Assembly (NCBI RefSeq): GCF_000429645.1
Contig: NZ_KE386935.1
Span: forward strand, 182,946-246,945
Direction of reading: 5' to 3'
DNA: 64,000 nt
Source of the DNA: Niveispirillum irakense DSM 11586
Lineage (GTDB): Bacteria > Pseudomonadota > Alphaproteobacteria > Azospirillales > Azospirillaceae
Shown here: positions 34,925 through 53,514 of the stretch, piece by piece
Layout of the letters: every line of letters starts with the position of its first letter
Position numbering within the stretch: position 1 is the first letter of the stretch
The notes under the pieces: generated by a model
Database searches by the model: none
Seen by the model: the letters and a program-made list of their open reading frames with translations, nothing else
Told to the model about the DNA's origin: nothing
Program-made: the position numbers and the translations under genes

Positions 34925-34941
34925 ACTTTGTATGACAATAA
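34925..34941. promoter_or_regulatory. regulon palindrome, site 1
   Basis: ACTTTGT-ATG-ACAATAA, core TTGT-N3-ACAA, lies in the gap between the divergent gamma-glutamyltransferase-family and BASS-transporter genes. See site 2 for the perfect version. Confidence 0.5.
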
Positions 34942-35027
34942 TACCAACATCTGCAAGCACGGGCTGGCGCATGACGCCGGATCGGGGTAAAGCCAATCGA
35001 CTGTCAGAAAGCGTAGGGTCCCGCGTC

Positions 35028-36026
35028 ATGAAGCGTTCTGTCTTTTCCGTCCTTGATCCTTTCCTGCTGATCCTGCTGGGTGTGCTGGCGCTGGCAGCAT
35101 TGCTGCCGGTACAAGGACAGGCGGCGGAGGTGACGGATATCGCCGCCAATATCGCCATCGCGCTTCTGTTCTTCTTCCATGGCGCCAAGCTGTCGCGGGC
35201 AGCGATCATGGCCGGCATCGGCCATTGGCGCCTGCATCTGACGGTAATGGCGATGACTTTCGCCGTTTTCCCGCTGCTGGGGCTGGGAATGGGTCAGTTG
35301 CCCCCGTCCATCCTGTCGCCTGCGATCGGTATGGGTATCCTGTACCTGTGCCTGCTGCCCTCCACGGTGCAAAGCTCCATCGCTTTTACCTCCATCGCCG
35401 GCGGCAATGTGCCGGCGGCGATCTGCAGCGCGTCAGCGTCGAACCTGCTGGGCATTTTCCTGACGCCGGTGCTGGTCGGGCTGCTGATGCACACGACGGG
35501 GCAGCCCGGCATCTCGTTGGACGCGCTGGAATCCATCATGCTGCAATTGCTGGCCCCGTTCGTGGCCGGCCACCTGCTGCAGCCGCTGATCGGCCGTTTC
35601 GTGCAGAAGCACAAGCAACTGATTTCCTATACCGATCGCGGCTCCATCCTGCTGGTGGTCTATTCCGCCTTCAGCGCCGCCGTGGTGGACGGGCTGTGGC
35701 ACAAGGTGGAATGGCGGGATCTGGCGGTGATCACCCTTGCCAGCCTTGTCCTGCTGGGCATTGTGCTGGGCCTGTCCATGCTGATCGGCCGGGCCATGGG
35801 CTTCAAGCGGGAAGACCGGATCGTGCTGATCTTCTGCGGTTCCAAGAAAAGCCTGGTGTCGGGCGTGCCCATGGCCGGCGTGCTGTTCCCTGCCGCCCAG
35901 GTCGGCATGATCATCCTTCCGCTGATGATGTTTCACCAGATCCAGTTGATCCTCTGCACCTGGCTGGCCGGGCGCTACCGGCAGCAACTGGAACAGGAAA
36001 AGGCGGCCGGAGAAATTGCCGGATAA
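35028..36026 (+). CDS. bile acid:sodium symporter (BASS) family transporter
   Basis: A 332-residue protein with about ten hydrophobic helices, of the SBF-like/YfeH type. FFHGAKLSRAAIMAGIGHWRLH, LLPSTVQSSIAFTSIAGGN and CGSKKSLVSGVPMAG are characteristic; the crossover helices carry the sodium sites. It probably moves an organic anion. ATG 35028 begins just before the first helix; in-frame starts at 34971 and 34932 lie in or near the operator and are less likely. Its promoter gap contains a site of the catabolic regulon, so it may import the aromatic substrate. Confidence 0.85.
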   Translation: MKRSVFSVLDPFLLILLGVLALAALLPVQGQAAEVTDIAANIAIALLFFFHGAKLSRAAIMAGIGHWRLHLTVMAMTFAVFPLLGLGMGQLPPSILSPAIGMGILYLCLLPSTVQSSIAFTSIAGGNVPAAICSASASNLLGIFLTPVLVGLLMHTTGQPGISLDALESIMLQLLAPFVAGHLLQPLIGRFVQKHKQLISYTDRGSILLVVYSAFSAAVVDGLWHKVEWRDLAVITLASLVLLGIVLGLSMLIGRAMGFKREDRIVLIFCGSKKSLVSGVPMAGVLFPAAQVGMIILPLMMFHQIQLILCTWLAGRYRQQLEQEKAAGEIAG

Positions 36027-36038
36027 AGGCAATAAAAA

Positions 36039-36071
36039 GCCGCCGGCCCTGTGATCAGGGGCCGGCGGCTG
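36039..36071 (-). terminator. intrinsic terminator of the cupin operon
   Basis: AGCCGCCGGCCC and GGGCCGGCGGCT form a 12-bp stem; on the minus strand it is followed by TTTTT. It serves the minus-strand monooxygenase-cupin unit and may also stop the convergent transporter transcript. Confidence 0.85.
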
Positions 36072-36093
36072 AACGGAAATGGTACGCTGCCGC

Positions 36094-36621
36094 TTAACCC
36101 TGGAGATGCGCCTCGCGCCGCTCGAACAGGGACTGGTCGGCAAAGCCGGCCACGTCCGGTCGGCCCCGGCCCAGCACCACCTGCAGGTGGCAGGGTTCTT
36201 CCGTCTCGTTCACATAGCCGTGGATGACCCCGGCAGGGCAGGAGATCATCTCCCACGGCCCCAGTTCCTTTGACAGGCGGTTGCCGTCCTCATCCTCGAT
36301 AAAGACCACGCAACGCCCCTGAAGGATGAAGAAAACTTCCTCCACCTCATGCGTGTGCGGTGCGTTGCCCTGGCCGGGGGGCACCAGCATGATGGAAAGC
36401 GTGAAATTGCCGGCCGGGACGATGCCGGCATCGTCATGCTTGCCTGAAGCGCCGGCGCCGATGAACCGGTGCTGCGCCCGACGATAGCCTTCGATATTCG
36501 CGTCGGAAAAGGCATTCCAGTCCGGCACACGATCGCCGAAACGGGCGACATAGCGATCCATGATCTGTTCCAGCGTCGCGTCCTGCAGCTCCGGCGGGCG
36601 GGGGTGGCGGGCAATGCCCAT
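36094..36621 (-). CDS. cupin-domain protein
   Basis: A 175-residue protein starting MGIARHPRPPELQDATLEQI, with AGGAGAG upstream. The cupin core is in the C-terminal half: PHTHEVEEVFFILQG (motif 1 His and Glu metal ligands) and CPAGVIHGYVNE (motif 2 His). It lies 125 bp behind the flavin monooxygenase on the same strand, with a strong hairpin between. It could be a metal-dependent isomerase or dioxygenase, or a binding protein, in the aromatic pathway; function unassigned. Confidence 0.8.
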   Translation of the reverse strand: MGIARHPRPPELQDATLEQIMDRYVARFGDRVPDWNAFSDANIEGYRRAQHRFIGAGASGKHDDAGIVPAGNFTLSIMLVPPGQGNAPHTHEVEEVFFILQGRCVVFIEDEDGNRLSKELGPWEMISCPAGVIHGYVNETEEPCHLQVVLGRGRPDVAGFADQSLFERREAHLQG

Positions 36622-36703
36622 CTGCTCTCTCCTGTTCGGGTTTGGCCTGTTCGGCGTTGATTTATCGGCGCAAAGGAAGGGCGCGGCGGCGGCCCATGCC
36701 GCT

Positions 36704-36741
36704 GAAGCCTTTAATCCCGAAGGGTCGGGATTAAAGGCTTC
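36704..36741. terminator. perfect 17-bp hairpin between monooxygenase and cupin genes
   Basis: GAAGCCTTTAATCCCGA and its exact complement flank a 4-base loop. The stem is unusually long and perfect. It begins six bases past the monooxygenase stop, inside the presumed operon. There is no U-run, so an mRNA-stabilising or attenuating role is as likely as termination. Confidence 0.6.
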
Positions 36742-36746
36742 AGGAA

Positions 36747-37967
36747 TCACAAGGTCGCGTCAGCGTCGACCATGCTGTCGATCAGGCAGGCACGCCGGAT
36801 GAAGGCATCATGCCGGTCAGGGTCCAGTGAGGCGGCGCGGATATCGGCCAGCTTCGCCTTGCGCGCCACCGGGTCTTTTTCCCCCAGGGTGTTCTTGTTC
36901 TGGATGCTCTGTGCCTGGACATAATCGGTCTGGGCCTTGCGGCGCTGGCGGCTGTAACGGTCGAACAAGGCAGGCGCGTCGCCGCCATGGAACCAGACCT
37001 GCTCCAGCTTCTCCGCCAGATTGACGGCATCATGGATGCCGCCATTCATGCCCATGCCGCCGACGGGATTATTCACATGCGCGGCGTCACCGGCCAGCAG
37101 CACCCGTCCCTTGTTGAAGGTGGCTGCCACGCGCTGATGCACCTTGTAAAGCGCGATGGTGACAATCTCGTACCGGCCCGGCTGGGGGCAGAATTTCTGC
37201 AGCCGCGCCTCGATGGCGTCGGGTGACAGCAATTCCTCATCCGTCTGTTCCGGCAAGGTCGGGCTGACGGCGCGCCACATGCCATCCCCGTCCGGGCCGC
37301 GCGCCTTGAACAGATTCATCCATTCATCAGGATCAGAGAAATAATTGCGGTTGGAGAGATCACCGCGCAGGCCGAAAAAGTCGAATCTTGTATCGACCTT
37401 CAGGAAACGTTCCGGCCAGGTGAAGCCCTCGAACCCGATCTCCGCCAGCTTGCGGATGGTGCTGCGGCCGCCATCGCAGCCCACCAAATAACGCCCCTCG
37501 ATAATTTCCATCCCATCCGGGCCGGAAACGACGGCGCGCACCCGGTCGGAAGTCTGCTCAATGGCGGTGACGCGGGTGGACATGCGCACCTGCGCCCCAT
37601 CATCCCCTTCCAACCGCTTCAGGATGGTCTGGACGATCTTGTACTGCTCCCATTGCAGCACATAGGGGTGCGACGGCACCTGCCGCATCTCGCGGATATC
37701 GAAACGGCCAACCAGCTCACCCGACACGCGGTCCAGGTAATGGAAGACAGGCGAGACCAGACCCTGGTCCAGCCCGTCCTGCAACAGACCCAGTTCATCC
37801 AGCATCGCCACCGTCGGCGGGTGGCAGGAGGCGGCCCGGCAATCAATCTCCGGCTCGGGCAGCGCCTCGATCAGGCAGACCGGAATATGCCGCTGACGCA
37901 ACGCATAGGCCAGCACGGCCCCGATGGGGCCGGCACCGACGATGATGACCCGATCCAAAGACTGCAT
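36747..37967 (-). CDS. FAD-dependent aromatic monooxygenase
   Basis: A 406-residue group A flavoprotein hydroxylase (PHBH/UbiH/MhpA fold). FAD motifs are VGAGPIGAV near residue 10, VGCDGGRSTIRKL in the middle (DG motif) and VLLAGDAAHVNNPVGGMGMNGG (GD motif). It would use NAD(P)H and oxygen to hydroxylate an aromatic ring. ATG 37967 follows AAGGACGGAG. A perfect 7-3-7 regulon palindrome lies 45 bp upstream. Its place in the pathway (ring activation before or after the Rieske step) is not readable from sequence. Confidence 0.9.
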   Translation of the reverse strand: MQSLDRVIIVGAGPIGAVLAYALRQRHIPVCLIEALPEPEIDCRAASCHPPTVAMLDELGLLQDGLDQGLVSPVFHYLDRVSGELVGRFDIREMRQVPSHPYVLQWEQYKIVQTILKRLEGDDGAQVRMSTRVTAIEQTSDRVRAVVSGPDGMEIIEGRYLVGCDGGRSTIRKLAEIGFEGFTWPERFLKVDTRFDFFGLRGDLSNRNYFSDPDEWMNLFKARGPDGDGMWRAVSPTLPEQTDEELLSPDAIEARLQKFCPQPGRYEIVTIALYKVHQRVAATFNKGRVLLAGDAAHVNNPVGGMGMNGGIHDAVNLAEKLEQVWFHGGDAPALFDRYSRQRRKAQTDYVQAQSIQNKNTLGEKDPVARKAKLADIRAASLDPDRHDAFIRRACLIDSMVDADATL

Positions 37968-38011
37968 GGACTCCGTCCTTCTGTAACGAGAAGGGCAGAG
38001 TAATCTTTGTA

Positions 38012-38028
38012 TGTTTGTATGACAAACA
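38012..38028. promoter_or_regulatory. regulon palindrome, site 2 (perfect)
   Basis: TGTTTGT-ATG-ACAAACA is a perfect 7-3-7 inverted repeat, the best copy in the window, with an extra half-site (CTTTGT) just to its left. It is 45 bp upstream of the flavin monooxygenase ATG and just past the GntR stop. Likely operator of the GntR/FCD regulator next door. Confidence 0.7.
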
Positions 38029-38055
38029 TAAAATCAGTCAGTGAATGGTTTGCCC

Positions 38056-38796
38056 TCAGGCTGCCGTCCCGGCACTGCGCCGTGTCGGCACGGGGGCCCC
38101 GTCCGCCGCTTCCGCCTCAAGCCGGGCGACAATGGCATTGCGGGAATTGGCCAGATGGGTGCGCATGGCCTCCACGGCACGGGTTGCATCACCGGCCTGG
38201 ATGGCCTCCATCAACCGATCCCATTCCTGCATCCCCTGTTCCAGGCGGCCCGGTTCCCCCATCGACCGCAGGCGCAGGTAATTGACCCGGGCCAGCAGGG
38301 GACGAGCGACATCATGGATAACCTTGGAACCGCTGCCCTGGAGAATCGTCTCGTAAAATTCCGCGGCCATCAGGGAGAGTTGCTGGACATTGCCCTTGTT
38401 CAGCGCCTTTTGCAGATCCTTGTGGATGCGGGTCAGGCGCTTGACCAGTTCCGCATCGCCGCGTTCCACCAGCCGGCGCACGGCTTCTGTCTCCAGCATC
38501 TCACGCACCGTATAGATGTCGTGGGCATCCTGGGCGGTGACGATGGCAACGGCGATATTGCGACGCTTGCCGACCTCGATCAGGCTTTCCGACTGAAGCT
38601 GGCGCAACGCCTCGCGCACGGAAGTGCGGCTGATGCCCAGCGCCTCACACAATTCCCGCTCCACCAGCCGGGTACCGGGCGGGTACAAGCCGGTGGAAAT
38701 GGCTGTGCGCAGCCGCTCCAGCGCGTGATCGCGGACCAGCATGGGGTTATCGATGATCTTCAGGTCGCTGTAATCCACGATTTGGGCCTCTGACAT
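38056..38796 (-). CDS. GntR-family regulator, FCD type
   Basis: A 246-residue protein. An N-terminal winged helix (about 22-88) has PGTRLVERELCEALGISRTS and VREALRQLQSESLIEV, the GntR signature; the C-terminal FCD effector domain (about 98-225) has VREMLETEAVRRLVERG. FCD regulators usually bind a small carboxylate (often with a metal) and release DNA. It is placed centrally among genes preceded by the TTGT-N3-ACAA palindrome and is the natural candidate to bind it. A degenerate copy overlaps its own start, suggesting autoregulation. It may be cotranscribed with the aspartate dehydrogenase gene upstream. Confidence 0.92.
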   Translation of the reverse strand: MSEAQIVDYSDLKIIDNPMLVRDHALERLRTAISTGLYPPGTRLVERELCEALGISRTSVREALRQLQSESLIEVGKRRNIAVAIVTAQDAHDIYTVREMLETEAVRRLVERGDAELVKRLTRIHKDLQKALNKGNVQQLSLMAAEFYETILQGSGSKVIHDVARPLLARVNYLRLRSMGEPGRLEQGMQEWDRLMEAIQAGDATRAVEAMRTHLANSRNAIVARLEAEAADGAPVPTRRSAGTAA

Positions 38797-38813
38797 ACTT
38801 TGTTACACGACTG
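38797..38813. promoter_or_regulatory. regulon palindrome, site 3 (weak)
   Basis: ACTTTGT-TAC-ACGACTG shares the left half with site 1, but the right half is degenerate. It abuts the GntR start codon. Confidence 0.3.
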
Positions 38814-38860: not shown

Positions 38861-39667
38861 TCATATGACATCAGACAAAAGACGGAAGATGGGCAGACCA
38901 TTGCCCAGACGCGCGCATTGCAGCAGGCTATAGGCGGTCAGCGCCGATGTTTTGGGATTATCCGGCGCGGCGCGGGCAAAGATATCGAAATGGAAGCGGC
39001 CGAACGGGCCTTCCGCCTCGATCAGCCCCACCGGATCGGTGACCAGACGGGAAGAGACCAGCCGCACCCGCGTACGTTCCATCCCGATGCCCGCCAGGGC
39101 GATGGCAACGGAGACATTGGCATTCTTGGGGTATGAGAGGGCGGCCTCCCGCGCATTGCCTTCAAAGAAAACACGCTCCGGCTCCGCATGGCCCAGATCC
39201 AGCACCTGTTCAGCCGCCGTGCCGGCCCAGGCATGCGGCGGCTTGTAGGAGGTGTAGGTCACATGATCAATGCCCATCAGGCGGGCGGCGGCCAGCCCGT
39301 CCAGCCCGGCAATGGCACCGGCCGGCAACAGCGCCCGTCCACCGCCCGCCTGCTCTGCGGCGTGCAGATGGTCGCGCAAAGCCGGATCGGCCAGCGCCCC
39401 GACGGAAGAGATGACAAGGTCGATGCCAGCGCGCAGCACGGCAGGTCCATAGTCAGTGATCGCCCCATGGCCAGCACATTCCAGCACCACGGACGGGGCC
39501 GTTGCGATCAGGGCCTCCACATCGAATACGGGCTTCGGCGCACTCCGGCCAGGGCGGACCAGGATGGCCTTGCATGTGTCCGCCTCCCCGATCCGGTTCA
39601 AGGTCGCGGCAATTTCGGCCCCGATGGCGCCGAAACCGATCATCGCGAAACCCGCTTTATCCGGCAT
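38861..39667 (-). CDS. aspartate dehydrogenase-family protein
   Basis: A 268-residue protein of the L-aspartate dehydrogenase (NadX-type) family. The Rossmann [10 protein letters not shown] lies near the N-terminus; [12 protein letters not shown] and [11 protein letters not shown], with the conserved His, lie mid-protein, then [14 protein letters not shown]. The family reduces iminoaspartate or oxidises L-aspartate with NAD(P). Here it is divergent from acetaldehyde dehydrogenase across a regulon palindrome and upstream of GntR, so it probably has a catabolic rather than NAD-biosynthetic role. ATG 39667 follows GGGGAG; the long upstream extension is rejected. Confidence 0.82.
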
Positions 39668-39706: not shown

Positions 39707-39723
39707 CGATTGTCCGACAATAT
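39707..39723. promoter_or_regulatory. regulon palindrome, site 5
   Basis: CGATTGT-CCG-ACAATAT; the ATTGT/ACAAT arms are perfect. It lies in the 86-bp gap between the divergent aspartate dehydrogenase and acetaldehyde dehydrogenase genes. Confidence 0.5.
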
Positions 39724-39753: not shown

Positions 39754-40713
39754 ATGGGGAGCCAGGGTTTGGCCAGAACCGCACCGGGGGACAAGATCCC
39801 CGTCGCCATTATCGGATCGGGCAATATCGGCACCGACCTGATGATCAAGATCATGCGTTTGTCGGATGTGCTGACGGTGGGTGCCTTTGTCGGCATCGAC
39901 CCGCAGTCAGACGGGTTGAAGCGCGCGGCACGCCTGGGCGTGCCGGTCACCGCCGGCGGTATCGACGGGCTGGTGGCAATGCCGGGCTTCGCCGATATCC
40001 GCATCGTCTTCGATGCCACCTCCGCCAAGGCGCATGCCCATCATGATGCGGTGCTGCGCGCCCATGGCAAGCAGGTGATTGACCTGACGCCCGCCGCCAT
40101 CGGCCCCTATGTCATCCCGCCTGTGAACGGGGCGGCGCACCTGTCGGCGCCCAACCTGAACATGGTGACCTGCGGTGGTCAGGCGACCATCCCCATGGTC
40201 GCCGCCGTGGCGCGGGTGGCCCCGGTCCATTATGCGGAGATCGTCGCCTCCATCGCGTCCAAATCCGCCGGGCCCGGCACCCGCGCCAATATTGATGAAT
40301 TTACCGAAACCACCAGCCGCGCCATTGAGCAGGTGGGCGGGGCCACACGCGGCAAGGCCATCATCGTGCTGAACCCGGCGGAACCGCCGCTGATCATGCG
40401 CGACACGGTCTATTGCCTGTGTGACACAGCCGACCGGCAGGCACTATCCGACAGCATCAAGGCGATGGTGGCAGAGGTGCAATCCTATGTGCCGGGCTAC
40501 CGGCTGAAGCAGGACGTGCAGTTTGAGAGCATCGGCGACAACGCCCCCCTCTTCATCCCGGAAATGGACCGGCATTTCACCGGCCTGAAAGTCTCTGTCT
40601 TCCTGGAGGTGGAAGGGGCAGCGCACTACCTGCCGGCCTATGCCGGCAACCTGGACATCATGACGTCGGCCGCGCTGAAAACGGCTGAGCGTCTGGCGAT
40701 GCAGCAGGCTTGA
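39754..40713 (+). CDS. mhpF: acetaldehyde dehydrogenase (acylating)
   Basis: About 319 residues, of the MhpF/DmpF/BphJ/CarF family. It turns acetaldehyde, NAD and CoA into acetyl-CoA as the last step of meta-cleavage. [15 protein letters not shown] binds [14 protein letters not shown] holds the catalytic Cys140; the later [19 protein letters not shown] segment is typical. The start is uncertain: ATG 39727, ATG 39754 or TTG 39769 (the last has GGGGAG well placed). It is followed after 10 bp by the aldolase, with which it normally forms a channelling complex. Confidence 0.93.
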
Positions 40714-40723: not shown

Positions 40724-41752
40724 ATGACCGCAAACACAAAGCCCCAGGGCAAGCTCTATATCCAGGACGTCACCCTGCGCGACGGCATGCATGCCATCCG
40801 CCACAAATACAGCCTGGACCATGTCCGCACCATTGCCCGCGCCCTGGACGCGGCCAAGGTGGATGCGATCGAAATTGCGCATGGCGATGGTCTGTCCGGC
40901 TCCAGCTTCAATTACGGTTTCGGCGCCGCCACCGATTGGGCCTGGATCGAAGCAGTGGGCGAGGTGGTACGCCATGCCAAGCTGACCACCCTGCTGCTGC
41001 CCGGCATCGGCACGGTGCATGATCTGAAACGGGCCTTTGATCTGGGCGTGCGTTCCGTGCGGATTGCCACCCATTGCACGGAGGCCGATGTCTCCCGCCA
41101 GCATATCGAAGCAGCCCGCGCCCTTGGCATGGATGTCGCCGGTTTCCTGATGATGAGCCATATGAGCAGCCCGGAAGCATTGGCCATACAGGCCAAGCTG
41201 ATGGAGGAGTATGGCGCCCAGTGCGTCTATGTCACCGATAGTGGCGGCGCCCTGACCATGGAAGGGGTGACAGCCCGGCTGCAGGCCTATGACCGGCTGC
41301 TGAAACCGGAAACCGAACGCGGCATCCATGCCCATCACAACCTGTCGCTGGGCGTGGCCAATTCCATCGCCGCCGTGCAGGCGGGCGCCATCCGCGTGGA
41401 TGCGTCCCTGGCCGGCATGGGGGCGGGGGCCGGCAACGCCCCGCTGGAAGTGTTCATCGCCGCCGCCGATGTCTATGGGTGGGAGCATGGTTGCGATCTG
41501 TTCGCCCTGATGGATGCCGCGGAAGATCTGGTGCGGCCATTGCAGGACCGCCCGGTACGGGTAGACCGGGAAACGCTGAGCCTGGGCTATGCCGGCGTCT
41601 ATTCCAGCTTCCTGCGCCATGCGGAGAAGGCGGCCAAGGACCATGGGCTGGATGTACGCACCATCCTGCTGGAACTGGGCCGCCGCCGCATGGTCGGCGG
41701 GCAGGAAGATATGATCACCGACGTGGCGCTTGATCTGGTGAAGGCAGGCTGA
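40724..41752 (+). CDS. mhpE: 4-hydroxy-2-oxovalerate aldolase
   Basis: A 342-residue HMGL-like aldolase (DmpG/BphI/CarE family) that splits 4-hydroxy-2-oxovalerate into pyruvate and acetaldehyde. The N-terminal [16 protein letters not shown] contains the catalytic Arg and Asp; [15 protein letters not shown] gives the metal-binding His pair; the C-terminal [21 protein letters not shown] matches the dehydrogenase-interacting region. GAGGGGG precedes the ATG. Cotranscribed with mhpF. Confidence 0.95.
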
Positions 41753-41898
41753 ACGCCATCACAACAGGGGTTCACATCTGGTCCTGCGGGTGGGGGATAC
41801 CGTTCCCCCCACCCTTTTCCTCCAGTTTCTGCGTAATAACCTGTCGTTGCTTCATGTCACCCATGATCGGGCTACGGGTGCGATGTGCAATATGTTAT

Positions 41899-41917
41899 GA
41901 TATTGAGAGTCGTTATA
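41899..41917. promoter_or_regulatory. Fur-box-like site upstream of tonB
   Basis: GATATTGAGAGTCGTTATA matches the classical 19-base Fur box at 14 positions and lies 29 bp before the tonB ATG. It suggests iron control; alphaproteobacteria may instead use Irr or RirA here. Confidence 0.4.
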
Positions 41918-41946
41918 ATTACCACCCGATCCAGAGAGCAAGGCGG

Positions 41947-42684: not shown

Positions 42685-42750
42685 CCCCCGGGGAACCCCG
42701 CCTCCCCCTGCCCCGTTGCCAGCCCACAGGCATGTCGGCCAGGAAAGGGT

Positions 42751-45201: not shown

Positions 45202-45474
45202 TCACCTCCGGTCGAAATAATGGCTGATGGCGAAGAAGGGCATGGTCGGCCGGCCCGACCAGATCAGCCATTTCACCACCATGTTGGGATGGATGCCCAG
45301 CGCCGACAGTTCATCCCGGCTGCCGCTGCGCAGGGTCGGGCGTACCGTTTCCGGCACGCCGAACCGGTCGAACAGGGCGTCCGGCCCGCTTTTCACCAAG
45401 GGCCGATCGGCGGGGGAACGGATCAGATGCTCGATCAGTTCATGCACGCCGGGCGGCGCTTCACGGGCCAGCAT
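45202..45474 (-). CDS. extradiol dioxygenase small subunit (LigA/CarBa-like)
   Basis: A 90-residue all-helical protein with the LigA-type C-terminal motif SRDELSALGIHPNMVVKWLIW. It caps the active site of the LigB-like partner. ATG 45474 lies one base after the hydrolase stop; the frame open to 45534 overlaps the hydrolase and is rejected. Size matches CarBa-like subunits rather than the larger LigA. Confidence 0.82.
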   Translation of the reverse strand: MLAREAPPGVHELIEHLIRSPADRPLVKSGPDALFDRFGVPETVRPTLRSGSRDELSALGIHPNMVVKWLIWSGRPTMPFFAISHYFDRR

Positions 45475-45475
45475 C

Positions 45476-46297
45476 TCAAACCTCCAGATCCAGGAAATGA
45501 TCGACGGCGGCGCAGAAATCAGCCTGCGCCTCAATCATCGCCCAATGGCCACAGTTCGGCACGATATAGCCCCAGCTATTCTCGAACAGATCCAGGAACC
45601 GGTAGGCGCGGGCCAGGGTGGAGACGCCATCCTGCTTGCCATTGACCACCAGCACCGGATGCTTGATCGACCGCAGATCATCCTCGGCGAAATTCAGCGT
45701 GCCCTTGCGGGTCCAGCCATTGATGGCGGCCAGGGCAGCACGGGCTTCCGGGGGATCGACGATATCGTAGCGGTACTGCACCATCTCGTCCGACGGAACG
45801 AATCCGGGGGCCGTCAACCCGCCGATCACACGGCGCATGCCGTCCAGGGTGAAATCATAATTGAGATTATGCAGCAGATGGGCCGAGGGCTTTTCCGGGA
45901 TCGGCAGGCCGGCACTGCCCATCAGCACCAGCTTGGAGACCCGGTCCGGATCGGCCAGCGTAACGCTGATCGCCGTGGCACCCCCCATGGAATTGCCGAC
46001 CAGGGCGGCCTTCTCAATCCCCATTGCCTTCAGGAAAGCCAGCAGGTGGCGGCCGCGGCCGGGCTGGTCATATTCATAGGCTTCCGGCGACGGCTTGTCG
46101 GTCTTGCCAAAACCGATCATGTCCGGCGCGATGACGCGGAAGCGCTTGGCAAAATGCGGGATGCAATCCTTCCAGTTGCCCCAGCTATCCGCCCCGGCCC
46201 CGCCGCCATGTACCAGCACCAGCACGGGGCCGGACCCGGATTCCAGATAATGGGTGCGGATGCCATCCGCGTCGATGAAGTTTGAAGTGATGGTCAT
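45476..46297 (-). CDS. meta-cleavage product hydrolase (alpha/beta)
   Basis: A 273-residue alpha/beta hydrolase of the MhpC/BphD/CarC group. It breaks the C-C bond of a vinylogous 1,5-diketone from ring cleavage, releasing 2-hydroxypenta-2,4-dienoate and an acid. The nucleophile is Ser103 in GNSMGG, with acid Asp in VNGKQDG, base His in NCGHWAM and oxyanion region HGGGAGA. AAAGGATC precedes the ATG. The operon order hydrolase-LigA-LigB follows the Rieske gene on the same strand. Confidence 0.92.
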   Translation of the reverse strand: MTITSNFIDADGIRTHYLESGSGPVLVLVHGGGAGADSWGNWKDCIPHFAKRFRVIAPDMIGFGKTDKPSPEAYEYDQPGRGRHLLAFLKAMGIEKAALVGNSMGGATAISVTLADPDRVSKLVLMGSAGLPIPEKPSAHLLHNLNYDFTLDGMRRVIGGLTAPGFVPSDEMVQYRYDIVDPPEARAALAAINGWTRKGTLNFAEDDLRSIKHPVLVVNGKQDGVSTLARAYRFLDLFENSWGYIVPNCGHWAMIEAQADFCAAVDHFLDLEV

Positions 46298-46457: not shown

Positions 46458-47627
46458 TCAGCGCAGATGCGCGGGCGTCTGGATGCCGCGGCCGTGGCGG
46501 GCGGCCAGGCGGCGCCATTCCAGGATGGTTACATCCGGCTCGCACAGCATCTCGTCCACCCAGCCGAAATCATCGGCGTAGAAGGGTTCCGTCACCTCGC
46601 GCGCCCAGATGTCATCACCGTTGAACCCATCCAGCCCGTGCGGCTTCCAGACAGATTCGAACTCCCCGGCGAAGGTCAGCTTATCCTCTTCCGACGCGAC
46701 CGGGCAGCCGATGGTCTGGACGTAAAGATGCGTCTTGTCATCCATCGGCACATACCATTCAAACTGGGTCAGGCCGGGACCGGGGAATTCCGCGACCTTC
46801 AGCACACCCGGCAGCCAGATGGAAGTGCCGACCGAAGCCGAGGTACCGGAGACGTTGGGCGTGCGCGGCCCGCGCACCACGACACGGCCATCAATCACGC
46901 CTTCCCACACCGGATGGTGCTGGGCGAAATCGTCGATCACACCCTTGGGCCCATCGGCCTCTTCCACCAGTTCCACCGCCCCCGGCAACGGCGTGTGGCC
47001 GATGGGGAAGTTGAAATGCCGGTAGTGACGCAGCGTCGTGTCCTTGTGAATGAAGATATGCAGGCTGTCGAAGCCGTTCTCCGCGCCCAGTCGCCAGTTG
47101 GAGTTCACGACCCGGTGCTTGCCCAGCACCATGATATCCTCATCCAAAAAGCCCGGCGGCACATCCTGGGCCAGCGGCGGCGGGGGATTATCCTCATCCG
47201 TATCACCGACAAAGACGAAGACCAGACCCTTTGCCTCCTCCACCGGATAGGAGACGATCTTGCGCCGGCCGATCAGGCGGCTGTCCGGCACGGCCAGGAT
47301 ATTGACCAGTTCCCCGGTCTGGAAACGGTAGGTATAGCCGTGATACCAGCAGGTGATCGTGTCCTTGGTATAGCAATCGGGCTTGCGCGACAGCGGCACG
47401 CCGCGATGCAGACACCGGTCGCGGATCGCATAGACCTTACCGTCGATCCGCTTCAGCAGAAGCTGCTCGCCCAGCACCTTGACGATCTCGATCTGGCCTT
47501 CGTCGATCTCCTTGGAGAAGCGGACCGGGTACCAATGGTTCCGGAAACCCATCTTGGCTTCCACATACCCACCCCAATCACCCACGGCCTTGGCAACGTC
47601 CGGGTTCACCAGATTCTCATCCGTCAT
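46458..47627 (-). CDS. Rieske oxygenase, carbazole 1,9a-dioxygenase (CarAa)-like
   Basis: A 389-residue terminal oxygenase. The Rieske site is C72-L-H74 and C93-W-Y-H96; the mononuclear iron site has His190 and His194 (ENGFDSLHIFIHKD) and an Asp at about 338 (GFNGDDIWARE). The remembered CarAa of Pseudomonas resinovorans CA10 (384 residues) shares GFRNHWYPV-FSKEI, DRCLHRGV-LS, TITCWYH, IWLPGVLKV, QFEWYVP and GIQT-AH, so the relationship is close in architecture. CarAa is a homotrimer without beta subunit, and none is present here. It likely attacks an angular or ring-fusion position of a bicyclic or N-containing aromatic. ATG 47627 has AGGGA upstream. Confidence 0.9.
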   Translation of the reverse strand: MTDENLVNPDVAKAVGDWGGYVEAKMGFRNHWYPVRFSKEIDEGQIEIVKVLGEQLLLKRIDGKVYAIRDRCLHRGVPLSRKPDCYTKDTITCWYHGYTYRFQTGELVNILAVPDSRLIGRRKIVSYPVEEAKGLVFVFVGDTDEDNPPPPLAQDVPPGFLDEDIMVLGKHRVVNSNWRLGAENGFDSLHIFIHKDTTLRHYRHFNFPIGHTPLPGAVELVEEADGPKGVIDDFAQHHPVWEGVIDGRVVVRGPRTPNVSGTSASVGTSIWLPGVLKVAEFPGPGLTQFEWYVPMDDKTHLYVQTIGCPVASEEDKLTFAGEFESVWKPHGLDGFNGDDIWAREVTEPFYADDFGWVDEMLCEPDVTILEWRRLAARHGRGIQTPAHLR

Positions 47628-47659: not shown

Positions 47660-47676
47660 TGATTGTATGACAAACA
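47660..47676. promoter_or_regulatory. regulon palindrome, site 6
   Basis: TGATTGT-ATG-ACAAACA, 6 of 7 arm positions symmetric, preceded by an ACTTTGT half-site at 47652. It lies 32 bp before the Rieske oxygenase ATG. Confidence 0.65.
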
Positions 47677-47705: not shown

Positions 47706-48494
47706 TCATGCGCTCAGGCTGAAACCCACGCGGCCAATCCCGTCGATGCTGGCTTCCACCCGGTCGCCGGCCTGGACGCCAACCATGGGACCCAGGGCGC
47801 CGGACAGGATCAGTTCGCCGGCGCGCAGCGGTTCCCCAAAACTGGCGGCACGGCGGGCCAGCCAGGCGACGGCATTCAGCGGGCCGCCCAGACAGTCCCG
47901 TCCCCGCCCGGTGGAAACCACCTTGCCGTTGACCGACAAAGACATGGCGCACTCCACCAGATCCAGCCCGTCCAGCCGGCGCGCCGGGCCGCCCAGCGCC
48001 AGCAAGCCGGAAGAAGCATTGTCGGCAATGGTATCGACGATGCGGATGTCCCAGCCGGCGATGCGGCTGCCCACAATTTCAATGGAAGGCAGCACCCAGT
48101 CGATGGCGCGCACGACATCGGCGACACTCGCATCGTGATAAGGCAGATCTTCCTTCAGCAGGAAGGCGATCTCCGCCTCCACGCGCGGCTGCTGCAGGCG
48201 GGAAAACGGCACCTCGTCGCCATCGCCATAGACCATGTCAGCGAAGAGATAGCCGTAATCCGGCTCCCCCACCCCAAGCTGAGCCTGCACCGCCTTGTTG
48301 GTCAGCCCGATCTTGCGCCCCACCGGCCGGCGCCCGGTAGCCTGCCATTCAGCGACCTGTATCTGCTGGATGGCATAGGCGCTGGCCACGTCACCGGCGG
48401 CAAAATGCTCCCGGATAGGGGCAATCGCGCCGCTGTTATAGGCCGACAGAAGCGCACCGGCCATCTGCCTGATCTTGTCCTGATGTTCGCTCAA
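47706..48494 (-). CDS. 2-hydroxypenta-2,4-dienoate hydratase (2-keto-4-pentenoate hydratase)
   Basis: About 262 residues, of the MhpD/BphH/CarD family, which adds water to the dienoate to give 4-hydroxy-2-oxovalerate, the aldolase substrate. Motifs are VGRKIGLTNKAVQAQLGV, PRVEAEIAFLL (metal ligands) and LPSIEIVGSRI. I prefer a TTG start at 48494, because AGGAGG lies 8 bases upstream; the ATG at 48515 would put this ribosome binding site inside the gene. It is the first gene of the minus-strand run ending in the ring-cleavage dioxygenase. Confidence 0.9.
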   Translation of the reverse strand: MSEHQDKIRQMAGALLSAYNSGAIAPIREHFAAGDVASAYAIQQIQVAEWQATGRRPVGRKIGLTNKAVQAQLGVGEPDYGYLFADMVYGDGDEVPFSRLQQPRVEAEIAFLLKEDLPYHDASVADVVRAIDWVLPSIEIVGSRIAGWDIRIVDTIADNASSGLLALGGPARRLDGLDLVECAMSLSVNGKVVSTGRGRDCLGGPLNAVAWLARRAASFGEPLRAGELILSGALGPMVGVQAGDRVEASIDGIGRVGFSLSA

Positions 48495-48525
48495 TTCCCT
48501 GTCCTCCTGTTTCATTCATGTTATA

Positions 48526-48542
48526 TGATTGTCATACAATCA
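48526..48542. promoter_or_regulatory. regulon palindrome, site 7 (perfect)
   Basis: TGATTGT-CAT-ACAATCA is a perfect 7-3-7 inverted repeat in the divergent gap between the hydratase and the ferredoxin reductase, so one site can control both directions. Confidence 0.7.
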
Positions 48543-48567: not shown

Positions 48568-49575
48568 ATGTTCAAGGCGACCTTCCTTTTCCAGGACGGG
48601 GGTGAAGTGGCGGTGGATGTGGCGCCGGATCAGACGGTGCTGGAGGCGGCAATCGCCGTGGATGCCCCGGTCCGCCATGATTGCTGTTCCGGCAGTTGCG
48701 GCACCTGCATCGCGGAACGGCTGGACGGGGATGCCACGCTGGAAGCGGGGGACATGGCCCTGCCGCTGACCCCGTCGGAACTGGCCGGCGGCCTGATGCC
48801 GACCTGCCTGACCCGGCTGGCGGGTGACACCCGCTTCCGCCTGCCCTATCCGCTGCATCCGGCAGCCCCGGAGCCGGCGCGCCATGCCGCCCATCTTCTG
48901 TCCGTCACCGCGGCCAGCCCCACGGTGCATCGCCTGCTGCTGGAGGTGGAGACGCCGGAGGATTTCGATTTCCGGCCCGGCCAGTATCTGCGCATCCGCC
49001 CGCCGGGGCTGCGGGCCGTACGCGCCTATTCCATCGCCAGCCGGCCTGCCGATTTGCCGCTGGTGGAACTGCTGGTACGCCATGTGCCGGGCGGCCAGAT
49101 GTCGGAATGGCTGCGTGAAAAGGCCCAGCCGGGTGACCGGGTGGCCCTGCACGGGCCGCTCGGCTCCTTTGCCTATGATGATCGCGCTGCCGCCCATCTG
49201 TTCATTGCCGGTGGCACCGGGTTGGCACCTGTCCTGTCCATGATCCGCAGCCGCAGCGATGACAGCCCGGCCCTGCTGTGCTTTGGCTGCAGCAAGCCGG
49301 AGGATCTGTTTTATCTGGCGGAGTTGCGGGAACTGGCGGCCACGCATCCGAACCTGTCTGTCCGCGTGGCCCTGTTCGACACGGGCGGTGGTGCGGTGCC
49401 GGAAGGGGTGGCGCAGGGCACCGCCCTTTCCGTTCTGACCGACGCCGATCTGGTACCGGGCACGACCGCTTATCTCTGCGGCCCGCCGGGCATGATCAAT
49501 GCCGCCAGCCAGTTCCTCGCCGGCAACGGCCTGCCCCTCTCCGCCATCCGGGCCGAGCGGTTCCTGCCAAGCTGA
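48568..49575 (+). CDS. [2Fe-2S]-FAD oxygenase reductase
   Basis: A 335-residue electron-transfer chain in one protein. The N-terminal plant-type ferredoxin domain has Cys39, Cys44, Cys47 and Cys80 (HDCCSGSCGTC, MPTC). The FAD domain carries RAYSIASRP, and the NAD domain GGTGLAPVLSM and YLCGPPGM. It resembles BenC and CarAd and should pass electrons from NADH to the CarAa-like oxygenase. No separate ferredoxin gene is in the window. ATG 48568 is chosen over an in-frame TTG at 48556. Confidence 0.92.
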   Translation: MFKATFLFQDGGEVAVDVAPDQTVLEAAIAVDAPVRHDCCSGSCGTCIAERLDGDATLEAGDMALPLTPSELAGGLMPTCLTRLAGDTRFRLPYPLHPAAPEPARHAAHLLSVTAASPTVHRLLLEVETPEDFDFRPGQYLRIRPPGLRAVRAYSIASRPADLPLVELLVRHVPGGQMSEWLREKAQPGDRVALHGPLGSFAYDDRAAAHLFIAGGTGLAPVLSMIRSRSDDSPALLCFGCSKPEDLFYLAELRELAATHPNLSVRVALFDTGGGAVPEGVAQGTALSVLTDADLVPGTTAYLCGPPGMINAASQFLAGNGLPLSAIRAERFLPS

Positions 49576-49602: not shown

Positions 49603-49634
49603 AAAAGCCGGGAGGAACCACCCTCCCGGCTTTT
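49603..49634. terminator. bidirectional intrinsic terminator
   Basis: AAAAGCCGGGAGG and CCTCCCGGCTTTT form a perfect 13-bp stem with a 6-base loop, giving U-runs on both strands. It separates the reductase gene from the convergent MFS gene. Confidence 0.92.
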
Positions 49635-49669
49635 CTTATCTCGATAACAGGTGTGGCGATGATCGGCTG

Positions 49670-50965
49670 TCACGTCACCGAGAGCGGGGCGCCACGGCGC
49701 TTTTCCGCATAGGGGCGCAGCAGCGTGACAAGCACAATCGCCATCAGACAGATCGGCACCCCCAAGGCCAGCATGGAATTGTAAGAGCCGGTCTTATCGA
49801 AGACGAAGCCGAAAATGGCCGGCCCCAAACCCATGCCCATCATCACCGCCCCGAACAGCACGCCGAAAATCGCGGCGAAACTGCGCAAGCCGAAATAGCG
49901 GCTGGTGAGATAGGCCAGCATATCCACTTCCGCCCCCAGGCTTCCGCCCAGCAGCAAGGCCGCCACCAGGAATGCCCAGGTCGGCAGATCCATCGCCAGC
50001 ACGCCCAGCCCAAGGGCGGAGAGCGAAAAGAAAATGAAAGCGATCAGCCTTGCATCATGCCGGTCGATCAGGAAACCGATCAACAGCCGCCCGCCAAAGG
50101 TCGCCAGACCGAAGATGGAGGCAATCTGGGCCGCATCACGGGTGGACAGGCCCCGATCCGTCAGCATGGGCACCAGATGCGGGATCAGCCCGTACAGCAC
50201 GAAGGCCAGGCTGACAAAGATCGTCACCAGGCTCCAGAAATCGCGCCGGGTCAGCGCTTCGCGCAGCGTGTCGCCGGTTTGGGCGGCAGGCGTTACCGGC
50301 GTACCCGCCGCATCCAGGGCGGGCGGCAGGCCATCAGGGGTCAGCCCCATGGCAGCGGGGCTTTCCCGCAATAAAAACAGGATCATCGGCAGGGTCAGGC
50401 AGAGCATGATCAGCCCCAACCCGACATAGCCCGTGCGCCAGCCATGGCTGGTCACCAGCCATTCGGTGAGAACCGGCACATAGGCGAAGCCCAGACCGGT
50501 ACCGCTACCGGCAATGCCGATGGCCAGCCCGCGCGACCGGTCGAACCAGGAAGCCAGGACGCGCATATAGGGTACGCTGTTCGACCCCACCGCCAGCGTG
50601 CCCATGACTATATAAACGGCAACGAACTGCCACAATGCCGTTACCAGAGGCAGGGACAGCAGACACAGACCCATAATGATGATGGAAGGAATCAGCACCC
50701 GCCGCACCCCGAACCGGTCCACCAGCCGCCCTACGAAGGGCAGGGACAGGGCGGTGCAGATCATCATGATGGATACGGCACTGCTGGTCTGGGCGCGGTC
50801 CCAGCCAAATTCCTGTTCCAGGGGGCCGATCATCAGCCCCAGGGAAGCCAGCCCGAAGGCGGCCGGGCCGGTGGAAATGCCCAACAGGCTGACCAGTACC
50901 ACCACCCAGCCATAGAAAGGCCGCCGGGCGCCGGCTGCCCCGTCAACTCGCGTTTCACTGTTCAT
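49670..50965 (-). CDS. MFS transporter
   Basis: A 431-residue protein with 12 predicted helices in two six-helix halves separated by a hydrophilic loop (about 195-230). GRLVDRFGVRRVL after helix 2 is the MFS motif A. The type resembles OFA/monocarboxylate transporters (WVVVLVSLLGISTGP). It may import an aromatic acid or export an intermediate. No regulon palindrome is evident upstream. Confidence 0.87.
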   Translation of the reverse strand: MNSETRVDGAAGARRPFYGWVVVLVSLLGISTGPAAFGLASLGLMIGPLEQEFGWDRAQTSSAVSIMMICTALSLPFVGRLVDRFGVRRVLIPSIIIMGLCLLSLPLVTALWQFVAVYIVMGTLAVGSNSVPYMRVLASWFDRSRGLAIGIAGSGTGLGFAYVPVLTEWLVTSHGWRTGYVGLGLIMLCLTLPMILFLLRESPAAMGLTPDGLPPALDAAGTPVTPAAQTGDTLREALTRRDFWSLVTIFVSLAFVLYGLIPHLVPMLTDRGLSTRDAAQIASIFGLATFGGRLLIGFLIDRHDARLIAFIFFSLSALGLGVLAMDLPTWAFLVAALLLGGSLGAEVDMLAYLTSRYFGLRSFAAIFGVLFGAVMMGMGLGPAIFGFVFDKTGSYNSMLALGVPICLMAIVLVTLLRPYAEKRRGAPLSVT

Positions 50966-51130
50966 CGCGTGTGCGCCCTTCTGCTTCCAGAATCCAATGA
51001 TGAACCCGCAGAGCTGTTTGGCTTGCAGATTCCATGCCTATGTATGGCAGGCAGATAATTGGCAGAGGGGACGGAGCCTGTTTCCTCTCGAACCTGAAAG
51101 GAAACAGGACTTCCGCTTCCCCACTCTAGA

Positions 51131-53392
51131 TCAGAAAGTGGTGGAAAGGGTGCCGCCGATGGTGCGCGGGCGGGTGGTATAGACACGGTAACCGTCACCC
51201 GTGACACGCAAACCAATCTCTGCGGCCTTGTCAGTCAAGTTCTCGACATAGAGGCTGGCATCCCAGGTGCCAAAGCGCGCACCCGCCCGCAGGCCCAGCA
51301 GGAAATAATCATCCAGCCGCTGGTAATTATCGTTGGTGTCGTTGAACTCGCTATAGGACGACCCGCGATAATTGAAGTTGGAGGTCAGATAGCCCTGGAT
51401 ATCCGGGGTCAGGTCTGTCTCGTAGCTCACCTGCCCACCGAAGGACCATTTCGGCGTATAAGGGATGCGATCCCCATCAAAGCCACCCGTTGCCGCCGTA
51501 TCCGGCAGATCCTCTGACAGTTTGCTGTCGGTGTAGGTGATGCCGAAATTGAACGACAATTCCTGCGTCGCGCGGGCATTCACCTGAAACTCCACGCCAT
51601 TCACATAGCTTTTGCCGGCGTTGGAGATATAGGCGAAGGTGCCGCCCGGATCGGTGACAGAAATCTGCTGGTTGGACCAGTCGATCCGGTAAACGGACAG
51701 TTCGGCGAACACCGCCCGGTCAAGCAGGTAGGATTTCACACCGGCTTCGTAGTTCCACAGCGTATCCGACGTGTAGCGCGCCGGCACGACGACGCCATAT
51801 TGCGCCGCGCCATCAGCATCATTGGTGCCACCGGGGCGGAAACCAGACGCCGCGCGGGCATAGAAGCTGGTGTCCGGCGTGGCGGCATAGGTCAGCGCGA
51901 AATTATAGCTGATCTTGTCTTCCGCCGTGCTTTCATCCAGCGCCACAGTCGGCGCCGTCTGGATTGGCGAGCTGGGGAACCGCAGGCTCTGGGTTGTGAC
52001 CTTATACTCTTTGATATCGGCATCATAATACCGGATACCCGCCGTGGCGGTGAGCTGGTCGGTTACCTGATAATTGCTTTCCGCGAACAGCGCATATTGG
52101 TCGATTGCGGTCTTGGAATAGGCGGAATTGATATCGTCCCGCGCCAGTCCGGAAGCAACGCAATCATCATGGAACCGGCAGAGCGCCATACCGGAAACCG
52201 GGTCGGCCACCAAGGCGGCGCTGATGCTGTCCGCCCGCTGTTCGGCATAGAAGCCGCCGACAACAATCTGCACCGGACCGGAGAAATCAGACGCGAAACG
52301 CAGTTCCGATGACCAGTTGGAGAGATCCTGGGCCTGATGGTAATCGAGAAGGGCCGGGATATTGAAGCGCCGGGCCGTCGGTGTACTGTCACGCGCCAGG
52401 AAGAAATTACGATCCAGATAGGATGTGGTCGCCGTAATGGTACCGAAATCCAGGCTGTAATCAATGACCGCGCTGTAAAGGTCGGTATTGTCATTGAAGG
52501 GCTGGAGCGTGTCCGCCTCGGCAATATAGGGGCCGGCGGAATAATCATAATATTGCGTGCCGTCGACATCGATCTTCTGATGCAACGCGGTCAGCAGGAT
52601 GGACAGCCGCTCGTTCGGGGTGGCCTTAATGCTGAAACGGCCGCCGCTTACGGCCTGGTCATTGGTGTTCTTCAGCGACCGCGTGCCGCTGACCTGGTCG
52701 ATATAACCGCCCCCATTATCACCCCAGACCACAGCGCGGGCCGCCAGCTTATCCTCCACGATGGGGGCATTGACCATCGCCTCCCCCTGGAAAAAGCTGT
52801 TGCCCCCCTTGACCCCGGCCACCGACATGCTGGCCCGGCCTTCCATCTCGTTCATCACCGGCTTGTTGGTGATGACGCGGACCGTACCGCTCATCGAACT
52901 GGCGCCGAACAGGGTGCCCTGCGGTCCCTTCAGCACTTCCACCCGCTCAACATCATGCAATTGGATGTTTGGTTGGTTATCGGAACCACCATCAAGACCA
53001 AGCCCAGTGATGACCGTCTCATCGAAATAAAGACCAACCGTCGGCTTGCCGGCCGAGGAAATACCGCGGACAATGATCTGGTTATCGCCAGCGCCACGAT
53101 TGTTGATCTGGATGGAGGGGTTCAACCGGGCGAAGCTTTCCATACTGAAAGCCTGGCTCTTTTCAATCGCATCGCCGGCAACGGCGGCGATGGCGATAGG
53201 GGTGTCTTTGTTGGTCGTGGCGCGTTTGGTCGCCGTGACGATGATTTCCTCCAGGATCAGCCCGCCGGCTTCATCCTGGGCGAAGGCGGTGGCGGGAATT
53301 GCCGCCAATGCACATGCGAGGGCACCACATTGGAGAAGGCGTGTCTTCAAACGGGGCCGCCGGCTGGCATTTTGCGCCAGAAATTTGCTCAT
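51131..53392 (-). CDS. TonB-dependent outer-membrane receptor
   Basis: A 753-residue receptor. The signal peptide ends near TAFAQD, TonB box region LEEIIVTATKR, plug domain with IIVRGISSAGKPTVGLYFDE and VERVEVLKGPQGTLFGASSMSGTVRVIT, then the barrel ending GGTLSTTF. The type is common in sphingomonads and caulobacters for siderophores, aromatics or glycans. ATG 53392 follows AAGGAGA at 10 bases. The promoter gap with the tannase-family gene holds regulon-like palindromes, so it may import the pathway substrate. Confidence 0.9.
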   Translation of the reverse strand: MSKFLAQNASRRPRLKTRLLQCGALACALAAIPATAFAQDEAGGLILEEIIVTATKRATTNKDTPIAIAAVAGDAIEKSQAFSMESFARLNPSIQINNRGAGDNQIIVRGISSAGKPTVGLYFDETVITGLGLDGGSDNQPNIQLHDVERVEVLKGPQGTLFGASSMSGTVRVITNKPVMNEMEGRASMSVAGVKGGNSFFQGEAMVNAPIVEDKLAARAVVWGDNGGGYIDQVSGTRSLKNTNDQAVSGGRFSIKATPNERLSILLTALHQKIDVDGTQYYDYSAGPYIAEADTLQPFNDNTDLYSAVIDYSLDFGTITATTSYLDRNFFLARDSTPTARRFNIPALLDYHQAQDLSNWSSELRFASDFSGPVQIVVGGFYAEQRADSISAALVADPVSGMALCRFHDDCVASGLARDDINSAYSKTAIDQYALFAESNYQVTDQLTATAGIRYYDADIKEYKVTTQSLRFPSSPIQTAPTVALDESTAEDKISYNFALTYAATPDTSFYARAASGFRPGGTNDADGAAQYGVVVPARYTSDTLWNYEAGVKSYLLDRAVFAELSVYRIDWSNQQISVTDPGGTFAYISNAGKSYVNGVEFQVNARATQELSFNFGITYTDSKLSEDLPDTAATGGFDGDRIPYTPKWSFGGQVSYETDLTPDIQGYLTSNFNYRGSSYSEFNDTNDNYQRLDDYFLLGLRAGARFGTWDASLYVENLTDKAAEIGLRVTGDGYRVYTTRPRTIGGTLSTTF

Positions 53393-53450
53393 ACCCGAGT
53401 CTCCTTGACTGTAAGCCTCTGTTTTCCCTGGTGGTTTTATTTGTTTTGTT

Positions 53451-53472
53451 TGCATACTGTGTTCAGTATGCA
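53451..53472. promoter_or_regulatory. 9-bp inverted repeat upstream of the TonB receptor
   Basis: TGCATACTG and CAGTATGCA are perfectly complementary arms around TGTT. The half-site TTGCATAC equals the left arm of the palindrome near the second GntR gene (56783), though spacing differs. It is 58 bp before the receptor ATG. Confidence 0.5.
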
Positions 53473-53497
53473 GCATTCGCTCGCCTCGTCAATCTGT

Positions 53498-53514
53498 ATG
53501 ATGTATGACAAAGT
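53498..53514. promoter_or_regulatory. regulon palindrome, site 8
   Basis: ATGATGT-ATG-ACAAAGT, with the right half well conserved and one core mismatch on the left. It lies in the divergent gap between the TonB receptor and the tannase-family gene. Confidence 0.4.

Follow-up and report, generated by a model that had tools for sequence, protein, structure and literature searches.

GntR-family control of operons for the meta-cleavage of biaryl compounds is already known (PMC2848856, PMC10282184); among the carbazole-degradation (car) gene clusters, a GntR-family CarR is present in Novosphingobium KA1 (pCAR3) and in Sphingomonas XLDN2-5 (PMC2848856). The operator consensus described for the FadR subfamily of GntR proteins is TKGT/ACMA with a 3-bp spacing (PMC4494728). 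Here we analyse a 64,000-nucleotide stretch from Niveispirillum irakense DSM 11586 (contig NZ_KE386935.1, positions 182,946 to 246,945; hereafter the window, whose own numbering is used throughout). An initial annotation had listed seven palindromic sites at gene starts in the window, read them as the operator family of an uncharacterised aromatic meta-cleavage regulon, and named as their likely binder the product of the FCD-type GntR gene at 38056-38796. We consider it very likely, on sequence evidence, that the sites are operators of this one local regulator, acting as a repressor.

All seven sites were found where the annotation had placed them, with those at 38012-38028 and 48526-48542 forming perfect 7-3-7 palindromes. 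Exact TTGT-N3-ACAA cores start at 34928, 38015, 39710, 47663 and 48529, and these are the only five matches in the window, compared with a mean of 0.23 and a maximum of 2 over 100 shuffles of it. Pattern searches of the whole 5.45-Mb genome returned 30 such places, five of which fall in one 13.6-kb part of the window (0.25% of the genome); this clearly contradicts the possibility, raised together with the annotation, that the sites are no commoner here than genome-wide. The 11-mer TTGTCATACAA has six copies in the genome when both strands are counted, four of them in the window. Judged from open reading frames (ORFs) of at least 180 codons, one of the two remaining copies lies between convergent ORF ends and the other within a long ORF. 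All three exact genome copies of TATNNTTGTCATACAA are in the window. The centre of the five unconstrained window matches is ATG/CAT in four cases and CCG in one. The sites are intergenic when probable start codons are used; the mechanically called BASS-like and aspartate-dehydrogenase-like ORFs each overlap a site.

The window was scored blind using a matrix built from 31 distinct sites, all from other genomes, alongside 10 Markov controls. Six of the seven noted sites took ranks 1 to 6 (48529, 35.5 bits; 38015, 35.3; 34928, 34.3; 47663, 28.7; 39710, 17.1; 53501, 15.5), while the best scores in the controls ranged from 9.4 to 18.7. Sites 34925, 38012, 47660 and 48526 are therefore far above the controls, whereas on score alone 39707 and 53498 fall among the controls. 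The seventh site, 38797, is outside the 25 best matches of the window.

The same operator recurs beyond this genome. With the GntR protein as query, 29 loci were obtained, 12 of which (L045-L056) encode a 53-70% identical protein and contain the cluster, in part only where the contig is short; the exact 11-mer is present in 41 copies in these 12 genomes. Searches independent of GntR, in which the Rieske protein had matches in 8 of 397 genomes and the cupin in 4 of 390 and in 5 of 217, added two cluster genomes, G150 and G587. Their GntR orthologues are 58% and 50% identical, respectively, and every 11-mer in either genome (2/2 and 4/4) is inside the cluster. Pooled over these 14 genomes, 47 of 47 exact 11-mers are placed no more than 170 bp outward of the start of an aligned cluster gene, and none inside a query gene. 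The neighbouring genes are those for the FAD-binding monooxygenase (FMO), ferredoxin, reductase/hydratase, Rieske protein, aspartate-dehydrogenase-like protein/MhpF, gamma-glutamyltranspeptidase (GGT)/BASS transporter, TauD/second GntR, tannase, and MFS transporter/TonB receptor. As the 47 sites were collected by exact 11-mer, their constant centre is partly a product of selection. A GntR orthologue and an exact site 5' of the FMO gene are present in 15 of 15 cluster genomes, the window's included. The concentration of sites here and their recurrence at the same gene starts in 14 other genomes support the proposal of a single regulon.

Five genomes with CarAa relatives (40-56% identity) contain neither a GntR orthologue nor the 11-mer in the 20 kb fetched; one of them (G178) is almost the KA1 car cluster, and another (G210) has one 11-mer elsewhere in its genome. 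Because these five related clusters, in which no orthologue of this GntR was found, are without the 11-mer, the operator appears to track this GntR as opposed to CarAa-type clusters generally, in what is a small sample. The distances of GntR parallel those of 11 other cluster proteins (r 0.79-0.96), which is also expected from common descent of the cluster. The other 17 GntR loci (L057-L073) are at most 42% identical, and no other cluster gene was seen in them; in five (L059, L062, L063, L064 and L067) a TTGT-N3-ACAA is nonetheless found within approximately 900 bp of the GntR gene. At L062:10739, L063:1142, L064:9706 and L067:3328 the palindromes are at most about 300 bp from the loci's own GntR genes (34-39% identity); this operator type is thus probably common to a GntR subgroup. 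Within the window's own family, 13 of 81 other genomes have a GntR match at E 1e-30 or better, none exceeding 36% identity.

Orthologous upstream regions were scanned with a matrix to which the window's sites also contributed; with it, the best of 203 coding stretches reached 10.0 bits. Between the aspartate-dehydrogenase-like and mhpF genes, eight loci have near-matches scoring 16-20 bits, and the site is exact in L045, L055 and L140; L048 (a cut contig) and L056 have none. Most positions orthologous to 48526 carry a site that is exact or changed by one base, and a weak site of 10-16 bits is present at the same place between TonB receptor and tannase genes in five Steroidobacter-group loci. 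Upstream of GntR itself, a single region out of 14 (L049, 14 bits) scores above the best coding stretch. The two weaker sites of the initial annotation therefore part company: 53498 has related sites in orthologous places, while 38797 was rejected as an autoregulatory operator. The GntR gene could instead share a transcript with the aspartate-dehydrogenase-like gene, whose end lies 64 bp ahead of it and whose promoter region holds 39707.

The GntR protein scores 60.3 bits for PF00392 (cut-off 27) and 97.2 bits for PF07729 (cut-off 24.3). All 15 orthologues share its recognition helix, SRTSVREA, without a change, while the longer stretch LVERELCEALG varies (LVERELCDALG in G587). A structure model with a mean pLDDT of 84.6, used for fold assignment only, has solved GntR/FCD regulators as its nearest folds. 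In predicted fold it resembles the VanR-type FCD regulators AlkR (9isw) and Atu1419 (6z74), with a TM score of 0.91 normalised by AlkR and of at most 0.60 for most Atu1419 chains; the two belong to other pathways and are 18-24% identical to GntR. Alignment to solved relatives was used to locate the FCD pocket, in which three histidines are presumably the metal ligands of TM0439-type proteins. Across 14 aligned orthologues the first is replaced by Tyr (13/14) or Asn (1/14) and the second by Trp (14/14), and the third is kept in all 14, so that the three-histidine metal site is not found in these proteins. Because two of the three histidines are replaced, we infer that the effector is an aromatic compound that is not metal-bound. 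The biphenyl regulators BphS/BphR1 are comparable, as GntR-family regulators of a biaryl meta-cleavage pathway, and their effector is a ring-cleavage product (PMC10282184), which would fit an aromatic effector here.

The window sites match TKGT-N3-ACMA, the FadR-subfamily consensus, near the genes of this GntR. A nearly identical motif, atTTGTaTGAcaAAT, was obtained by ChIP-exo for E. coli YieP (PMC7642389), whose helix, SRTAVREA, differs from SRTSVREA at one position. YieP is 46% identical to GntR over 48 residues of the DNA-binding domain, has no significant similarity to it beyond that domain, and belongs to an unrelated pathway. The choice of this GntR as the probable binder is thus strengthened by its co-occurrence with the sites, the invariant helix, the FadR-subfamily consensus and the lack of the 11-mer in five related clusters in whose fetched 20 kb no orthologue of it was found.

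In an alignment of 13 FMO promoters, TTGTCA is followed by a TA at 17 bp in 12 rows and at 18 bp in the remaining one; when the rows were shuffled 20,000 times, no column count exceeded 8. This test treats the rows as independent, although five are close relatives. Taking one row per lineage, TTGTCA-17 bp-TA is present in 8 of 8, and two further genomes also fit the 17-bp spacing, bringing the total to 14 of 15. TTGTCA and TA are probably the -35 and -10 elements, the operator doubling as the -35 box. The centre is CAT when read toward FMO in every FMO promoter, and we propose that this asymmetry exists because the operator also serves as the -35 box. On the hydratase/Rieske side, TCATATAA directly follows the operator in the window, L052, L054 and L055, and TCATATCA does so in L130 and L137; either is a plausible -10 box.

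In the mechanism we propose, a GntR dimer on TTGTCATACAA would cover the core promoter when no inducer is present, with the -35 box inside the operator at the FMO promoter and, on the hydratase side, the operator immediately preceding the -10 box. An aromatic substrate or a ring-cleavage intermediate would presumably free GntR from the DNA. This release would open the promoters for uptake, CarAa-type hydroxylation, CarBaBb-type meta-cleavage and CarC-type C-C hydrolysis, together with those for the hydratase, aldolase and acylating aldehyde dehydrogenase, and the accessory FMO, cupin, aspartate-dehydrogenase-like and GGT-like genes would be under the same control. GntR might alternatively activate some or all of these promoters, as the GntR regulators of biphenyl operons are described both as repressors and, where operator and promoter do not overlap, as activators (PMC10282184). 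We regard this as unlikely: here the operator overlaps a probable -35 box or abuts a probable -10 box, the geometry that the same review associates with repressors and which argues for repression.

The initial assignment to aromatic meta-cleavage can be sharpened, as CarBb-, CarBa- and CarC-like genes, absent from the earlier gene list, are in the same minus-strand run as the Rieske gene. The best solved relatives of the Rieske protein are carbazole 1,9a-dioxygenase oxygenases, and its Rieske and active-site motifs are kept in the alignment. As in car systems, a CarAa-type homotrimeric oxygenase (PF11723) is predicted together with a two-subunit CarBaBb-type dioxygenase and a CarC-type hydrolase. 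By family assignment, the cluster would encode a complete carbazole-type meta-cleavage route to pyruvate and acetyl-CoA, because these types occur together with a hydratase, an aldolase and an acylating aldehyde dehydrogenase. Three car segments (pCAR1, pCAR3 and pIC001B) supplied the proteins for a comparison with the window. Identities are 52-55% for CarAa, 33-43% for CarBb, 47-51% for CarC and 21-27% for CarAd; CarD matches pCAR1 only (46%), and CarBa matches KA1 only, weakly (25%). As in the CarR-containing clusters of KA1 and XLDN2-5, a GntR gene adjoins the CarAa-CarBaBb-CarC core. However, this GntR is not a CarR orthologue, being 30% identical to KA1 CarR, whose recognition helix is GRGPVREA, and the window differs from KA1 in having one operator type at several promoters as well as accessory genes not found in the KA1 segment.

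With homologues of CarAa, CarBaBb, CarC, CarD and CarAd present, the cluster could be a plain carbazole-degradation operon of the kind already known. We consider this improbable, to much the same degree as activation by GntR. The CarAa-like protein is 76-83% identical to members of its own clade, compared with 52-55% to the three carbazole enzymes, and a clade stretch TLRH(Y/F)R (STLRHFR in two rows) replaces the sequence of those enzymes after what we take to be the active-site histidines. The FMO, cupin, aspartate-dehydrogenase-like, GGT, tannase and TauD proteins gave no tblastn match in the fetched pCAR1 and pCAR3 segments. No CarAc-type ferredoxin gene was recognised in the window, to which that search was confined; CarAc-like genes are present in 12 of 26 cluster loci searched, several of them directly downstream of the operator. 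Carbazole was not adopted as the substrate, given the 52-55% CarAa identity, the differing active-site stretch and the extra accessory genes. In Acinetobacter johnsonii pIC001B, TTGTAGAACAA lies approximately 1 kb before the CarAa-like gene and ahead of a transporter gene, and a further TTGTN3ACAA is inside the CarAa-like gene; the 17-kb segment contains no match to any GntR query. TTGTAGAACAA would be the CarR operator of Janthinobacterium J3, on which the open-licence literature searched gave no paper, and is taken as a lead only.

Several observations weigh against control of all these genes by the one local repressor. The 12 genomes L045-L056 were retrieved through GntR, so that co-occurrence in them holds by construction and only G150 and G587 are independent. 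The KA1 carR-carAa segment, from a GntR-linked car cluster, is without TTGTN3ACAA. In the Steroidobacter group there is no site before the Rieske gene, with TTATCATACAA in the hydratase/reductase region, and most MFS genes in orthologous loci have no upstream site. Within the window, no operator of the GntR gene itself is supported, and the promoter boxes were read from consensus sequences and not from mapped starts. Finally, relatives as remote as YieP read similar sites, and the window's genome contains 13 FCD-domain matches.

Another FCD regulator could therefore bind the sites, the foremost candidate being the second GntR (56915-57574), which adjoins the conserved TauD gene; in L049 an exact site lies between these two genes, while a matrix scan of upstream regions found none between them in the window. 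We hold this to be somewhat less probable still than activation by GntR. Five Steroidobacter-group loci keep the operators, yet the only matches to the second GntR within 10 kb are the first GntR, or there are none. G411 (L132) has a 48% identical relative of the second GntR, no orthologue of 38056 in the 20 kb fetched and no 11-mer in its genome, and the helix of the second GntR reads SRTPIREA. The G411 relative adjoins CarC- and CarBaBb-like genes. That the repeat reflects nothing more than AT-rich promoters or a strong -35 element common to them is hardly credible. TTGTCA is close to TTGACA and has the right spacing at FMO, but a -35 box does not need the right half ACAA, and the position and orientation of the site differ at other promoters; in none of the 14 other cluster genomes does an exact copy lie outside the cluster, and related clusters lack it.

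The preferred reading, repression by the GntR at 38056-38796, leaves the substrate to be considered. The TLRH(Y/F)R stretch would be consistent with a different, perhaps acidic, substrate. In G587 an asparaginase-family gene (PF00710; L162:17176-18135, minus strand) lies behind the operator, and a similar ORF with the look of an asparaginase, judged by eye, was observed behind the operator in Croceicoccus (L144:5709-6794, minus strand); both are divergent from a CarAc-like ferredoxin gene. Together with the aspartate-dehydrogenase-like and GGT-like genes, these hint at an amino-acid-linked substrate. Two plasmids have relatives of the FMO in the neighbourhood of amidohydrolase and GntR genes, which do not settle the substrate. 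We also observed relatives of the cupin and the aspartate-dehydrogenase-like protein (39-46%) together in Rieske clusters with IclR regulators on replicons of Klebsiella, Acinetobacter and Caballeronia (L145, L146 and L147), which suggests that the pair is a shared catabolic module; the open-licence literature searched does not name a substrate for such clusters. As a tentative and rather doubtful proposal, the cluster may be a natural pathway for an unrecognised, probably nitrogen-containing biaryl or tricyclic compound, perhaps acidic or amino-acid-linked. This pathway would be scattered over the window's own lineage, the Steroidobacter group, and Caulobacter and sphingomonad relatives, and the pollutant-degrading car operons would be its cousins; its operator would be asymmetric through its -35 role, and aromatic residues in place of metal-binding histidines would fit the FCD pocket to an aromatic ligand.

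Table 1. Predicted operators, promoter elements and genes of the cluster, in window coordinates.
Feature	Coordinates	Strand	Evidence or remark
Predicted operator, GGT-like (-)/BASS-like (+) intergenic region	34925..34941		Exact core; same-place exact site in G587 and G086
Predicted operator and probable -35 box, FMO-cupin operon	38012..38028		Perfect 7-3-7 palindrome; TTGTCA-N17-TA
Probable -10 box TACTCT of FMO promoter	37997..38002	-	17 bp from TTGTCA
Predicted operator, aspartate-dehydrogenase-like (-)/mhpF-like (+) intergenic region	39707..39723		Exact core, different spacer
Predicted operator 5' of CarAa-like Rieske gene	47660..47676		28.7 bits; exact sites at most 30 bp before Rieske gene in L049, L138 and L139
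Predicted operator, hydratase (-)/reductase (+) intergenic region	48526..48542		Perfect 7-3-7 palindrome; 35.5 bits
Weak predicted operator, TonB-dependent receptor (-)/tannase-like (+) intergenic region	53498..53514		15.5 bits, control range
Gamma-glutamyltranspeptidase-like hydrolase	33069..34865	-	PF01019
SBF-like (BASS) transporter; start chosen from sequence	35028..36026	+	PF13593
Single-domain cupin; true start probably within ORF	36094..36750	-	PF07883
FAD-binding_3 monooxygenase (FMO)	36747..37967	-	PF01494
FCD-type GntR regulator, proposed repressor	38056..38796	-	PF00392, PF07729
Aspartate-dehydrogenase-like protein; start chosen from sequence	38861..39667	-	PF01958; NF009828 above cut-off
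Acylating acetaldehyde dehydrogenase, MhpF type; start approximate	39754..40713	+	TIGR03215 above cut-off
4-Hydroxy-2-oxovalerate aldolase, MhpE type	40724..41752	+	TIGR03217 above cut-off
CarBb-like LigB-type extradiol dioxygenase	44382..45197	-	PF02900; 43% to KA1 CarBb
CarBa-like small subunit; start chosen from sequence	45202..45474	-	25% over 77 aa to KA1 CarBa, E 2e-7
CarC-like meta-cleavage product hydrolase	45476..46297	-	51% to KA1 CarC; best solved match 1j1i
CarAa-like Rieske terminal oxygenase	46458..47627	-	PF11723, 260 bits; 55% to KA1 and 53% to CA10 CarAa
2-Keto-4-pentenoate hydratase; start possibly TTG at 48494	47706..48515	-	46% to CA10 CarD; NF008461 348.9 bits, slightly below cut-off 350
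Oxygenase reductase, CarAd-like (Fer2-FAD-NAD)	48568..49575	+	27% to CA10 CarAd
MFS transporter	49670..50965	-	PF07690; 61-68% relatives in orthologous loci
TonB-dependent receptor	51131..53476	-	PF00593, PF07715
Tannase/feruloyl-esterase-like protein; start chosen from sequence	53641..55242	+	PF07519
TauD-type dioxygenase, conserved with cluster	55861..56736	-	PF02668; 73-82% in orthologous loci
Second FCD-type GntR, beside TauD-type dioxygenase	56915..57574	+	About 62% identity in Caulobacter and Phenylobacterium loci

Between the mhpE and carBb genes, the plus strand carries three ORFs (41854-44378), one of them for a TonB-C protein and another for a protein that matches no Pfam family; used as queries, the three had no match among the 29 GntR loci at E 1e-10. 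Elsewhere in the window, a cobalamin riboswitch (RF00174, 132.5 bits) was identified at 25603-25808 on the minus strand, just upstream of the ORF 23591-25645 (minus strand), a weak TonB-dependent receptor match whose mechanical start it partly overlaps.

The description as uncharacterised is upheld in part: no account of this regulon was found in the open-licence literature (subscription journals being mostly outside that scope), while its enzyme core is of a known type. As far as seen, the new elements are a regulon in which one operator serves multiple promoters, the overlap of that operator with a -35 box, and the association of the accessory genes with a separate CarAa clade. As its operator, regulator and member genes are all specified, the predicted regulon is experimentally testable, and the operator can flag further member genes in each genome. 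Overlap with the -35 box would offer a simple reason for an asymmetric centre in the operator of a dimeric repressor, and the CarAa-type pathway bears on the origin of pollutant-degrading angular dioxygenases.

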